Positions 54,254 through 62,389 of a stretch of 64,000 nt of DNA are shown here, piece by piece. Every line of letters starts with the position of its first letter. Positions within the stretch are counted from its first letter, which is position 1. The notes below the pieces were generated by a model. It was not told where the DNA came from and ran no database searches. It saw only the letters and a program-made list of their open reading frames with translations. Source of the stretch: Clostridiaceae bacterium (GTDB lineage: Bacteria > Bacillota > Clostridia > Saccharofermentanales > Saccharofermentanaceae); the NCBI GenBank assembly GCA_012729635.1, contig JAAYCT010000008.1:62001-126000 (forward strand). The letters are read 5' to 3'. The position numbers were made by a program, and so were the translations under genes.

Positions 54254-55792
54254 ATGTATATCCCGATTCCCGCTTTGTCCGATGAGTCGCTTTATATTCG
54301 AATCTACCGGTCGATCCGGGAGGATTGTCTCTCGGGCTTACTGCGCCCCGGCGATCGTCTGCCCTCCCGAAGAAAGCTCGCCCGGGAGCTCGGCGTCGCC
54401 GTCAATACCGTGGACGGCGCATATCAACAGCTGGTCTCCGAGGGCTATGTCGAATCCGTCCCGCGAAGCGGCTTCGTCGTGCGTCCGTTATTCAAAGAAG
54501 ACGCACAAGGCGGAAAGCTCGGTTTTTTGCGGGAAAGCAAAGGCGCGGGGCGCGGATCTTTCACCGACGAAGGGCGCAATCAAGGCGCCGACCGGGGGTC
54601 CGGAAACACGGAGTCCGAAGGGGAAAATACGGAGGATGAACTCATCGATTTTTCGCCGAACGGCGTCGACTTGTCCGCCCTTCCGATCCATGATCTCCGA
54701 AAGCTGATTCGTGAAGTTTTCTCGTCGGATCCGAAAGTGGTCTTCGGCGGATGCGATCCGAAGGGTCATCCGGCTCTTCGCGCCGCACTCTGCCGGTACC
54801 TGGCCGTCGTGCGCGGGATCGGCTGTTCGCCCGACCGGATTGTCATCGGGGCGGGTACGGATTATGTTCTGCAGTACCTGATCCGGCTGTTGCGGCTTGC
54901 GGTGAATATGCGGGCGATCGCGACCGAGAATCCGGTATATAACAAGGCCATTCAAATCTTTACGAGTCTGGGCGAGACGGTCGTACCCCTTCCGCTTGAT
55001 GATCAGGGGCTGATTCCCGAAGCCCTGCGCGCCTGTCCGGCGAATATCGCCTATGTGACGCCGTCGCATCAGTTTCCGCTCGGCATCGTCATGCCGGCGG
55101 GACGACGTGCCGACCTGCTTTCGTGGGCATCGGACAGCGCCGACCGGTACATCATCGAGGATGATTACGACAGCGAGTTCCGCTACTCCGGTCGTCCGGT
55201 CCCGCCGCTTTTCGCGATGGCCAAAGCGGATAAGGTCATCTATTTGGGCACATTCTCCAAGTCCGTCGCTCCCTCCCTGCGGATCAGTTATCTCGTTTTG
55301 CCCGAAGTGCTTTCCGGGATCAGCCGGAACCGCATGGCTTTCTTTAACACAACCGTGTCCGTGCCCGACCAGCTCGTTCTCGCCCGCTTTCTGGAGACGG
55401 GGCTTTTCGAGCGACACATCAACCGGATGCGGACGCTCTACCGGCGCAAGAAGGATGTGCTCGTCCGGGAGTTGTCGTCTTTTCAGACACCGCCGGAAAT
55501 CACCGGAACCGATGCGGGGATGCACCTGATCTGCTCGTTTCGGGACGGGCCGGGAGAAACGGAACTGGTTGAGCGTGCGGCACATAAGGGTGTCCGGGTC
55601 TACGGCATCTCGGCTTATTTTTCGATCCGCGGGATACGGGACCCCTCCGCGGTCCTGCGGATTCCCGAATCGACCGTGCTTCTGGGCTACGGCGCTCCGG
55701 ACGCGGATACGATCGTACGGGGTTGTCGCCTGCTTCGGGAAGCGTGGAATCGACAGGGAAAACACAGGATTGCGAATATACAATTCCGATAA
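54254..55792 (+). CDS. MocR/PdxR-family PLP-dependent transcriptional regulator
   Basis: 512 aa. N-terminal GntR-type winged helix (about 5-78: LYIRIYRSIREDCLSGLLRPGDRLPSRRKLARELGVAVNTVDGAYQQLVSEGYVESVPRSG), an acidic/Gly-rich linker of about 55 residues (85-140), then a fold-type I aminotransferase domain (about 150-500) with PSHQFPLG, EDDYDSEFRYSGRP and the PLP-binding lysine in YLGTFSKSVAPSLRISYL (Lys336). Such regulators sense pyridoxal phosphate and often control B6 synthesis or uptake. ATG 54254 follows GGAAAGG; the in-frame TTG at 54248 is unlikely. Divergent from the ECF gene it probably regulates. Confidence 0.9.
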   Translation: MYIPIPALSDESLYIRIYRSIREDCLSGLLRPGDRLPSRRKLARELGVAVNTVDGAYQQLVSEGYVESVPRSGFVVRPLFKEDAQGGKLGFLRESKGAGRGSFTDEGRNQGADRGSGNTESEGENTEDELIDFSPNGVDLSALPIHDLRKLIREVFSSDPKVVFGGCDPKGHPALRAALCRYLAVVRGIGCSPDRIVIGAGTDYVLQYLIRLLRLAVNMRAIATENPVYNKAIQIFTSLGETVVPLPLDDQGLIPEALRACPANIAYVTPSHQFPLGIVMPAGRRADLLSWASDSADRYIIEDDYDSEFRYSGRPVPPLFAMAKADKVIYLGTFSKSVAPSLRISYLVLPEVLSGISRNRMAFFNTTVSVPDQLVLARFLETGLFERHINRMRTLYRRKKDVLVRELSSFQTPPEITGTDAGMHLICSFRDGPGETELVERAAHKGVRVYGISAYFSIRGIRDPSAVLRIPESTVLLGYGAPDADTIVRGCRLLREAWNRQGKHRIANIQFR

Positions 55793-55837
55793 AAAGAGAC
55801 TGTCTCATTTGACTTGGTTACAAGTCTTTGGAGACAG
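55791..55837 (-). terminator. Intrinsic terminator after ackA (repeat element, copy 1)
   Basis: Minus strand: outer stem CTGTCTC (55837-55831) with GAGACAG (55806-55800), inner stem GACTT (55826-55822) with AAGTC (55815-55811), then a run of five T (55795-55791). It lies between convergent mocR and ackA. Its loop sequence recurs almost unchanged at 61987-62032. Confidence 0.7.
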
Positions 55838-55880
55838 CCCCTGCGTTTATATATACAAGTGTCTTCCGCGTTCTTGCGAT

Positions 55881-59752: not shown

Positions 59753-61093
59753 ATGAACGTTGTCGGAATCGTCGCGGAATACAACCCGTTTCATAACGGA
59801 CACGCTTACCAGCTCGCAAGGGCGCGCGATCGCTTCGGAGATCAAACCCCGATCGTCGCCGTGATGAGCGGCCCGTTCGTTCAGCGCGGCGAGCCCGCAA
59901 TCGCGAGCAAATGGCTGAGAACCGAAGCCGCGCTTCTTTCCGGAGTAGACCTAGTCATTGAGATTCCGTTTACCTTCGCCTGCGCGTCGGCGGAGCGTTT
60001 CGCCCAAGGCGCGATCCGACTTTTATCCGATACCGGGATCGTCACCGATTTGTATTTCGGCTCCGAGTGTGATGATCTTTCTCTTCTGTGCTGCGTCGCC
60101 GAGGAGTATGACGAGGAGAATCCGGAATATATCTCCCTGTTGCGGGAGAAGCTGCGTGAGGGAAAATCCTACGCCAAAGCACGTGAAATGGCGGTCGGCG
60201 AGTATTTTCGCAGGAGCGGCAGAACGGAACTCGCCGAGGCATCCGCACGGATCATGAGCATGCCGAACAGCATCCTGGCGCTCGAGTACCTGATCGCGAT
60301 CCGAAAGACCGGATCGAAGATCCGGCCGGCCGCCTTATTGCGGGAAGGGGCGGGCTACAACGACTGCTCGACCGAATCCGCGCTGATGAGCGCAACCGGA
60401 ATTCGAAATCTCGTGGACCGTCGGATCGATGACGGGAAATACCGGGTGACGGATATCGCATCGGACCTGATCGGCCGACTTCCCATAATCTCTTTGTCCC
60501 TCCTTCTGTCCGAATGGCAGAAGGGCGTCTGCCCGCTTACGCCGCGCGCCCTGATCGGAGAGCAGATTATAAGAATCCGGTCCGAATCCATAGAAACGCT
60601 CGAAAAATTCGCGTACATGGGTGACCGACTCCCCGGGCGTCTGAAAAACGCGGTCGGACGGCTGCGTGATACGGATCCCGAACACCTCCTGGAGGCTTTT
60701 CGGGAGGAAGCCGATACCCGAAGATTTGCTCCGACGCGCATCTTTCGGGCAATGACCTCCATGTTGGTCGGTCAGCTTGAAAAAGACCTGTCCGACTTAG
60801 TCACACCCGAGTATATTCGCGTCCTCGGATTTTCGGACCGGGGAAGAAATCTGTTGCGGATGATGCGCAAGACCTCTGCCCTCCCCGTAATGGACAAAGC
60901 GTCCGATTTTCTGTCCCACGGAGGAAATCCCGCCCTGACCCGAATGGCGGAGCTCGACCTGATCGCCTCGGACCTCTGGGCGTTGAAGGCCGGACTTCGC
61001 TACGGCGATGAATTTGAGCGGATCGTTATCCGGCTGACCGCCGCTCAAACCAAAAGAAGAGACGAGCGTGTATTCCCCGATTCATCAGCGTGA
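59753..61093 (+). CDS. tmcAL: tRNA(Met) cytidine acetate ligase (TmcAL)
   Basis: Forms N4-acetylcytidine at the wobble base of elongator tRNA-Met using acetate and ATP. 446 aa. The nucleotidyltransferase-like N-terminus has VGIVAEYNPFHNGHAYQLARA (HxGH motif), MSGPFVQRGEPAI and KWLRTEAALLSGVDLVIEIPFTFACASAERFAQGAI, all typical of TmcAL (old name YlbM). Helical C-terminal half with ILALEYLIAI and REGAGYNDC. Acetate made by AckA next door would be its substrate, although proximity may be chance. The stop is followed directly by the repeat-rich gene-free region. Confidence 0.92.
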   Translation: MNVVGIVAEYNPFHNGHAYQLARARDRFGDQTPIVAVMSGPFVQRGEPAIASKWLRTEAALLSGVDLVIEIPFTFACASAERFAQGAIRLLSDTGIVTDLYFGSECDDLSLLCCVAEEYDEENPEYISLLREKLREGKSYAKAREMAVGEYFRRSGRTELAEASARIMSMPNSILALEYLIAIRKTGSKIRPAALLREGAGYNDCSTESALMSATGIRNLVDRRIDDGKYRVTDIASDLIGRLPIISLSLLLSEWQKGVCPLTPRALIGEQIIRIRSESIETLEKFAYMGDRLPGRLKNAVGRLRDTDPEHLLEAFREEADTRRFAPTRIFRAMTSMLVGQLEKDLSDLVTPEYIRVLGFSDRGRNLLRMMRKTSALPVMDKASDFLSHGGNPALTRMAELDLIASDLWALKAGLRYGDEFERIVIRLTAAQTKRRDERVFPDSSA

Positions 61094-61095
61094 AC

Positions 61096-61157
61096 GATCC
61101 GTTCTTTCGTTCCGGTCGTTTCTTCGGCTCGGATCCGTTCTTTCGTTCCGGTCGTTT
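61096..61157. repeat. 26-bp direct repeat, two copies 36 bp apart
   Basis: Copies at 61096-61121 and 61132-61157 are identical and begin GATCCGTTCTTTCGTTCC. They start 3 bp after the tmcAL stop. An unbroken minus-strand frame across them is not convincing as a gene. Confidence 0.85.
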
Positions 61158-61264
61158 GGGCGACACGAGAAACAAAAAGTGGCGGTCTCAAAACAATGTA
61201 CGCCCGGATGTTGAACCGAAGCCCAATGAAAGGGTGCACAGTATAACTTGAATCCGGCCGGGGC

Positions 61265-61288
61265 CTACGGACCTTCGAAGGTCCGTAG
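61265..61288. repeat. Perfect 24-bp palindrome
   Basis: Half-site CTACGGACCTTC followed immediately by its reverse complement (GAAGGTCCGTAG), centre TTCGAA, no loop. No T-run on either side, so not a standard terminator. It lies 172 bp after tmcAL and 132 bp before the tandem array. Confidence 0.85.
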
Positions 61289-61419
61289 CGGCTTGAAATT
61301 GCCGACAAAATGCCGGAAACACTCGGATTTTTCGACATTATTCCATTATCGAGAGGGTCCGGAGCACTTTTCTCGAATTTGCCGGTATCCGCGCCGCTCG
61401 AAAAGCCGAACATACCGGC

Positions 61420-61778
61420 GCGGCCTCGTTTTTGATCAATGATTACCGACTAAACGAAGCACATCGGCGATTTTGTCGGTATCCGGGCGGCGCGCGGCCT
61501 CGTTTTTGATCAATGATTACCGACTAAACGAAGTATATCGGCGATTTAGTCGGTATCCGGGCGGCGCGCGGCCTCGTTTTTGATTAATGATTACCGACTA
61601 AACAAAGCATATCGGCGATTTAGTCGGTATTCGGGCGGCGCGCGATCGCATTTTTGATCAATGATTACCGACGAAACGAAGCACATCGGCGATTTAGTCG
61701 GTATCCGGGCGGCGCGCGGTCTCGTTTTTGATCAATGATTACCGACGAAACGAAGCACATCGGCGATTTAGTCGGTAT
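61420..61778. repeat. Tandem array of five 74-bp repeats, each with an inverted repeat
   Basis: Unit starts are 61420, 61494, 61568, 61642 and 61716, exactly 74 bp apart; the fifth unit loses homology after 61778. Each unit holds: a GC-rich block (GGGCGGCGCGCGGCC-like); the palindrome TTGATCAA (TTGATTAA in unit 3); and an inverted repeat TACCGACTAAA / TTTAGTCGGTA with a 16-nt spacer. Units 4-5 have GACGAAA in the left arm and unit 1 has TTTTGTCGG in the right arm. There are no unique spacers, and 74 is not a multiple of three, so it is neither a CRISPR array nor coding. A degenerate remnant (CGGTATCCGCGCCGC) precedes unit 1 at 61383. The DNA from 61779 to 61986 shows nothing recognised. Confidence 0.92.
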
Positions 61779-61986
61779 TTCCTCGCCGTCACGCAAGTGC
61801 AGTCTCCGTCCCCCATACATTCCTGTCGAATCCGGTTCTATAACATCTCAAAACGCTGCAAATAAACTACTACTGTATCAGAATGGATTCAGAGTAAGTT
61901 TCATGGGCTCTTTTTCAATCCAGTGGTGAGACGCTTGAACGTTTGCCGCATCGTATTGGGTTCAGACCCATGATCCATCTGCTTCG

Positions 61987-62035
61987 AAAAAAAGCTGCCT
62001 CATCCGACTTTGCTACAAGTCTTTTGAGACAGCCC
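61987..62035 (-). terminator. Intrinsic terminator after rpsT (repeat element, copy 2)
   Basis: Minus strand: CTGTCTC (62032-62026) pairs with GAGGCAG (62001-61995) with one G-U, inner GACTT (62021-62017) with AAGTC (62010-62006), then seven T (61993-61987). Same architecture and nearly the same sequence as the element after ackA at 55791-55837. Confidence 0.75.
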
Positions 62036-62079
62036 ATTCGTATTCATGATAAAACTCGGTCGAACAGGGATTCAATGAA

Positions 62080-62352
62080 TCATTCGGCACTCTTGGTAAC
62101 GGCATTCGCCATCTTGGCCAGACGCGATTTCTTGCGATCCGCGGTCTTCTTATGCATCAGACCCTTGGCCGCTGCCTGATCAATCGCCTTCTGTGCTTCG
62201 CGAATCGCGGTCGCACCCTGATCGTCCGTCGAGGCGACGGAGGCCTTCGCCTTCTTGATTACCGTGCGCAGTTCGCTCTTCTTCATCTTGTTTGCCGCGG
62301 TCTTCTTCGCGGTGACACTGACACGCTTGATCGCTGATTTGATATTCGGCAT
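62080..62352 (-). CDS. rpsT: 30S ribosomal protein S20
   Basis: Small-subunit protein that binds 16S rRNA. 90 aa, basic and helical, starting MPNIKSAIKRVSVTAKKTAANKMKKSELRT with the classic Ile-Lys-Ser-Ala-Lys/Ile-Lys-Arg opening, and VIKKAKASVASTDDQGATAIREAQKAIDQAAAKGLMHKKTADRKKSRLAKMAN at the C-terminal half. ATG 62352 has GGAGGTG at 62365-62359; the upstream in-frame ATG overlaps that site and is rejected. Single-gene transcript with its own promoter and terminator. Confidence 0.96.
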   Translation of the reverse strand: MPNIKSAIKRVSVTAKKTAANKMKKSELRTVIKKAKASVASTDDQGATAIREAQKAIDQAAAKGLMHKKTADRKKSRLAKMANAVTKSAE

Positions 62353-62389
62353 TCCCTTCACCTCCATCTTTTTTTCTACAGACTAGGAG

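Follow-up and report, generated by a model that had tools for sequence, protein, structure and literature searches.

Protein-binding sites repeated along a single face of the DNA helix are known from iterons and from other plasmid arrays with helical spacing. In enterobacteria, REP and BIME sequences are short palindromes that are arrayed, intergenic, found at gene ends and dispersed in many copies. One account describes BIMEs and REPs as sites bound by several proteins (PMC2817692), and one end of a REP palindrome is marked by a conserved tag, GTAG or CGTC (PMC3733652). Curved DNA with phased A-tracts has A+T-rich stretches at the helical period, and at least one report links A-tract periodicity in prokaryotes to nucleoid proteins (PMC3940949).

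In this study, an array of five 74-bp units was analyzed in the window, that is, the whole 64-kb stretch of DNA from genome G000. The five repeats are members of a class of phased palindrome arrays that is widespread in one family of Clostridia and has apparently not been described before. The class resembles REP/BIME in form, with short arrayed palindromes that are intergenic, lie at gene ends and are dispersed in many copies, but it lacks their transposase and tag. The Y1 transposase (RAYT/TnpA-REP, PF01797) is absent from six draft genomes with arrays (G000, G001, G002, G008, G096 and G153); a single match was found in G010, and controls, including E. coli, were positive. Neither GTAG nor CGTC is common to the arm types TACCGACTAAA, TACCGTCCCAA, GTATAATTGTT, TTTGTTATTTT, AAAGTCACACT and others. 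Unlike REP/BIME, the arrays combine many unrelated arm sequences with a single geometry, and they step by whole turns of the helix. When the arm-blind scan described below was run on 350 kb of E. coli K-12, it gave BIME-like steps at 92 bp (8.7 turns) and 100 bp (9.5 turns) and one 57-bp pair, none of them whole turns.

Other known systems are matched in part. A+T-rich stretches recur at the helical period here as in phased A-tracts, with exceptions in G008 and G005, but the phasing is locked to conserved inverted half-sites in discrete arrays, whereas that of A-tracts is a diffuse genome-wide bias. In contrast to iterons, the arrays lie at many chromosomal loci, their half-sites are inverted rather than direct, and one genome holds many arm classes; no replication or partition gene was seen beside them. 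A palindromic repeat, a spacer-like variable part and a regular period recall CRISPR, but here the center of the repeat varies too and spacers recur between units in several arrays; no cas genes were found among the immediate flanking genes read. The window array is MITE-like in that the dispersed non-coding element around it has terminal inverted repeats of 13 bp; however, the arrays of G153 stand alone without such ends, and one end of the window element is the terminator hairpin of rpsT.

The window array and its dispersed element

TRF detected one array in the whole window (61418-61778; period 74, 4.9 copies, 93% matches, 0% indels, score 624), and a repeat search found a 148-nt family in it with start-to-start distances of 74, 74 and 74. 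Both confirm the five exact-period repeats that a preliminary description had placed between tmcAL (59753-61093, + strand) and rpsT, the gene of ribosomal protein S20 (62080-62367, - strand); these genes, identified by ORF and gene calls, are convergent. All five dyads consist of 11-bp arms around a 16-nt center. The arms are perfect in dyads 2 (61518-61555, TACCGACTAAA-16-TTTAGTCGGTA) and 3 (61592-61629). As the preliminary description had it, the remaining dyads each show one arm change without a compensating partner: dyad 1 (61444-61481) reads TACCGACTAAA-16-TTTTGTCGGTA, and dyads 4 (61666-61703) and 5 (61740-61777) both read TACCGACGAAA-16-TTTAGTCGGTA. The palindrome ascribed to every unit, TTGATCAA, is present in four of the five; unit 3 carries TTGATTAA instead. 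The period, which had been taken as a clue, is indeed exact, but at this locus alone it is a weak one because the five units are only ~7% diverged from one another; the real signal lies in the relatives. A relaxed dyad pattern matched eight places in G000 and the reversed-pattern control none; therefore, the dyad is not a product of chance.

The array is carried by a larger dispersed non-coding element (about 61181-62038, with ends GGCGGTCTCAAAA ... TTTTGAGACAGCC), which was delimited by second copies and by a 13-bp terminal inverted repeat (92%; 61181-62034) that is a property of the larger element only. A second copy in G000 (C6:9930-10488) matches both flanks at 85-95% identity, and a truncated copy (C19:18608-18930) retains the right part; each holds one unit, compared with five in the window. 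A VNTR had also been among the suggested roles, which is right for the window copy. By eye, neither the window copy nor the C6 copy showed an evident target-site duplication. The terminator-like hairpin of rpsT (61989-62035, - strand; GGCTGTCTCA...TGAGGCAGC followed by a T run on that strand) is also the right end of this element. Hairpins of ~50 bp (GGCTGTCTC...GAGACAGCC) occur as terminator-like dispersed repeats at 55791-55846 and 61989-62035 of the window, in C2, C3, C29 and C37 of G000, and in G006. A parent transposon was considered and rejected: the matches to the right end elsewhere were these hairpins, and the two that were examined had no adjoining transposase.

A second dispersed non-coding element with the unit occurs in G000 (C10 and C30) and in G001, G006 and G010 (L004, L007, L002, L022 and L021). 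It is alike in two genera, and this similarity of sequence suggests transfer. Several of its copies adjoin a TACGGACGAAA dyad. The sister species G001 has an array at the same site beside rpsT, and its flanks differ. Two other repeats were seen near the window array: a perfect loopless 24-bp palindrome, CTACGGACCTTCGAAGGTCCGTAG, in the left portion of the window's dispersed element (61265-61288), and a 26-bp direct repeat, GATCCGTTCTTTCGTTCCGGTCGTTT, whose two copies lie 36 bp apart directly 3' of the tmcAL stop codon (61096-61157).

Whole-turn steps and A+T phasing in related genomes

Of the 188 genomes of the order, 7 contain the exact dyad TACCGACTAAA-N13-20-TTTAGTCGGTA, and all 7 are from one family; the reversed control never matched. 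The family genomes used are drafts, at least mostly assembled from metagenomes. Among 84,980 species genomes, the same dyad was found almost only in these Clostridia, the others being one Fibrobacter-labelled and one Campylobacteraceae-labelled contig. The latter match (L131) is a single long perfect hairpin and was judged coincidental. The former (L124, Fibrobacter sp. MAG JAKSIL010000050.1) has the same arm type together with a CACCTACTAAA type at 2522-2895, with steps of 95, 93, 95 and 53 bp, and represents either a cross-phylum transfer or a misbinned contig. IMG/VR viral contigs contained no exact dyad match, and the top literature match to the exact sequence (PMC6467988) was a PCR primer.

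The preliminary description had proposed a search of related genomes and had named a lack of conservation of the inverted repeat there as evidence against it; the inverted repeat proved to be conserved. In G153, which belongs to a different genus, 36 dyads match the relaxed pattern, and neighboring blocks show the arm classes TACCGACTAAA, TACCTACTAAA, TACCCACTAAA and TACCGTCCCAA. Between neighboring units of this genome, the arms differ by 7%, the ~16-bp centers by 52% and the 36-bp spacers by 66%, and the step stays 74 bp. Constant length despite such high divergence suggests, from sequence comparison, that length is under selection.

Steps were then collected with an arm-blind scan for neighboring inverted repeats with similar arms, applied to 800 kb of G153 and to smaller samples of G096, G078 and G005. 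It revealed more arrays with unrelated arms in these four genomes, and a single genome can hold several dispersed arm families. Same-arm steps cluster at 52/53, 62-66, 74/75, 85, 95 and 105 bp, which are whole multiples of ~10.55 bp, and the whole-turn rule holds with unrelated arms in the four genomes. The clustering appeared with two versions of the inverted-repeat finder that differ in their thresholds. The Rayleigh R at 10.55 bp was 0.83 per locus (n=51) and 0.78 per genome, arm type and step (n=36); without the steps of 73-76 bp it was 0.71 (p about 2e-6 to 4e-6). A jitter test gave p at most 5e-4, which is the floor of the test, as permutation p-values are bounded by the number of permutations. 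When the period was left free, the best fit was 10.85 bp with R nearly unchanged. Because the units within an array share descent by duplication, the independent sample consists of loci and arm types, which are fewer than the units.

Since the whole-turn hypothesis was chosen after the first steps had been seen, steps outside the fit and an orthologous pair are cleaner tests. A later search with one arm type yielded six clear unfitted steps (64 bp in G007; 64, 74 and 73 bp in G139; 63 and 74 bp in G153:C6), each ~1 bp or less from a multiple of 10.55 bp. Two dyads at an orthologous intergenic site are separated by 180 bp in G153 and by 191 bp in G096, a difference of 11 bp or one turn; in the alignment, two large gaps between the dyads sum to this difference. 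All four half-sites of this pair have switched together between CTACT and CGACT (T/G). The same-arm steps that do not fit measure 50 bp (three G096 pairs), 55 bp and 58.5 bp. Where the two dyads differ in arm type, the step often departs from whole turns (39-40, 91.5 and 102.5 bp). Between-class steps such as those in L156 (7545-7845), L155 (7816-7856) and L118 (102-194) are ~0.7 turn off and mutually consistent.

The A+T content of the arrays follows the same period. At variable positions only, the top period in a 5-25 bp scan was 10.6 bp (p about 5e-4, the test floor). An A+T peak at 10.5-10.7 bp is present in the spectra of 10 of 11 G153 arrays, all five G002 arrays and the window array, in which the peak over the first three dyads is at 10.6 bp. 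Median spectral power was 23 in the G153 arrays and 2.9 in other intergenic DNA (p=1e-7). With the arms masked, the A+T maxima coincide with the dyad centers, and the coherent A+T amplitude was 0.10 in the G153 arrays compared with 0.012 for single inverted repeats. AAAA or TTTT occurs in the centers of 20 of 24 G153 units. The G008 arrays, with steps of 64-65 bp, showed no 10.5-bp A+T peak (top at 9.2-9.3), and the A+T of the G005 dyads is out of phase.

Gene-end location and possible function

None of the 11 array loci in contiguous G153 DNA overlaps a called gene. Four are located between convergent genes and one between divergent genes, compared with 30 and 66, respectively, of 270 background intergenic regions; with five more G153 loci, the convergent share is 7/16 (p=0.0017 against 30/270). 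Genes were called for these counts with a simple home-made caller. Several arrays start 7-30 bp 3' of a stop codon, and some are sited beyond apparent terminators. The flanking genes are mostly unrelated housekeeping genes. A shared neighbor as partner gene was rejected: TetR lies near two arrays, and XRE-cupin and AraC near one each, which is inconsistent.

Whole-turn spacing of palindromes 3' of genes suggests DNA that is bent or wrapped around a protein rather than action as RNA. The arrays are probably phased curved DNA in intergenic regions, whose dyads would be sites for a putative architectural protein with a topological role. Each dyad presents two inverted 11-bp half-sites ~2.5 turns apart around an AT-rich center, and same-arm dyads recur every 5, 6, 7, 8 or 9 turns, 7 turns being the 74 bp of the window. 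The A+T-rich stretches come once per turn; therefore, an array should form one continuously curved, single-faced stretch of DNA. The dyads are probably occupied on one face by a putative dimeric protein that binds DNA sequence-specifically, or by a small number of such proteins that differ in arm specificity, and the DNA would thereby be wrapped or bent. The predicted site of action is 3' of genes, with a preference for the space between convergent genes, in which the supercoils driven by transcription meet. We infer that the role is likely architectural or topological: an array could block readthrough or serve as a pinned bend, a plectoneme tip or a topological boundary. Arrays of the window species also travel within the larger dispersed elements, and the observed difference in copy number probably reflects expansion to five units.

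A bolder proposal, which we put forward tentatively and regard as rather less than an even bet, is that the arrays represent a new class of chromosomal architectural element. Such arrays of modular inverted half-sites could change arm class, while selection would keep their geometry (whole turns, AT-rich center and per-turn A+T), and they would form curved segments, wrapped around protein, by which supercoils between convergent genes are managed.

The features that favor bent DNA also bear on the alternatives. Palindromic repeats could be selfish, that is, small mobile units, or pieces of mobile elements, that spread and multiply without a host function and are tolerated in the intergenic DNA 3' of genes. 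This would agree with the presence of the unit in larger dispersed elements of G000, G001, G006 and G010, with copy numbers of one and five, with the patchy distribution of the TACCGACTAAA type, and with the dispersal of several arm families in one genome. However, mobility leaves unexplained why integer-turn steps are kept across strongly diverged spacers, and it accounts neither for the one-turn length change at the orthologous site nor for the A+T phasing. The missing Y1/RAYT transposase also argues against a selfish origin, which we regard as unlikely. Operator arrays, or decoys, for one or more transcription factors controlling nearby promoters would fit half-sites whose sequence is conserved and which fall into several specificity classes. 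Such arrays are highly improbable given the preference for gene ends, the single divergent locus and the housekeeping neighbors; likewise, the partition, replication or decoy-operator roles suggested in the preliminary description found no support.

RNA hairpins in 3'-UTRs would be transcribed dyads with an 11-bp stem and a 16-nt loop that protect mRNA ends or terminate transcription. The short distance of many arrays from a stop codon, arm types that are complementary in both arms of the dyad, and a window array that folds better than its shuffles (z=-3.1) are consistent with such hairpins. Nevertheless, single-stranded RNA spacers give no cause for quantization at 10.55 bp, and most arm changes would break the stem: within classes, 30 positions deviate on one side and 6 on both sides in G153, and 13 and 1, respectively, in G000. 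With one-sided changes, each half-site behaves as expected if it is read as DNA sequence. Pairing within the 16-nt center is not beyond expectation, no Rfam family matched at gathering thresholds, and the arrays beyond terminators are likewise unfavorable to hairpins, so that this explanation is very unlikely. The earlier preference for a DNA-binding array over a structured RNA is thus supported by the one-sided arm changes, the whole-turn steps and the 10.6-bp A+T phasing.

Selection on DNA geometry has a direct signature in whole-turn spacing that is kept while the intervening sequence drifts. If protein-bound curved DNA is confirmed, the arrays would provide a natural dispersed system in which to study DNA bending and wrapping at bacterial gene ends, and their sequence would help to track down the protein involved in this little-studied clostridial family. 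It would also follow that an extragenic palindrome is not necessarily a transposase-driven REP or an RNA hairpin.

Two further sequences were noted in these genomes. In G000, contig C3 contains a lipoprotein-like ORF that includes a long low-complexity stretch of DDEDDE type (L086, 4736-5365). In G153, a GTCAGGC family consists of nested inverted repeats (AAAAGTCAGGC/CAGGCAAAAGT) at C2:276204, C3:26178 and C3:30760; its steps of 56.5 and 37.5 bp lie outside the whole-turn rule.
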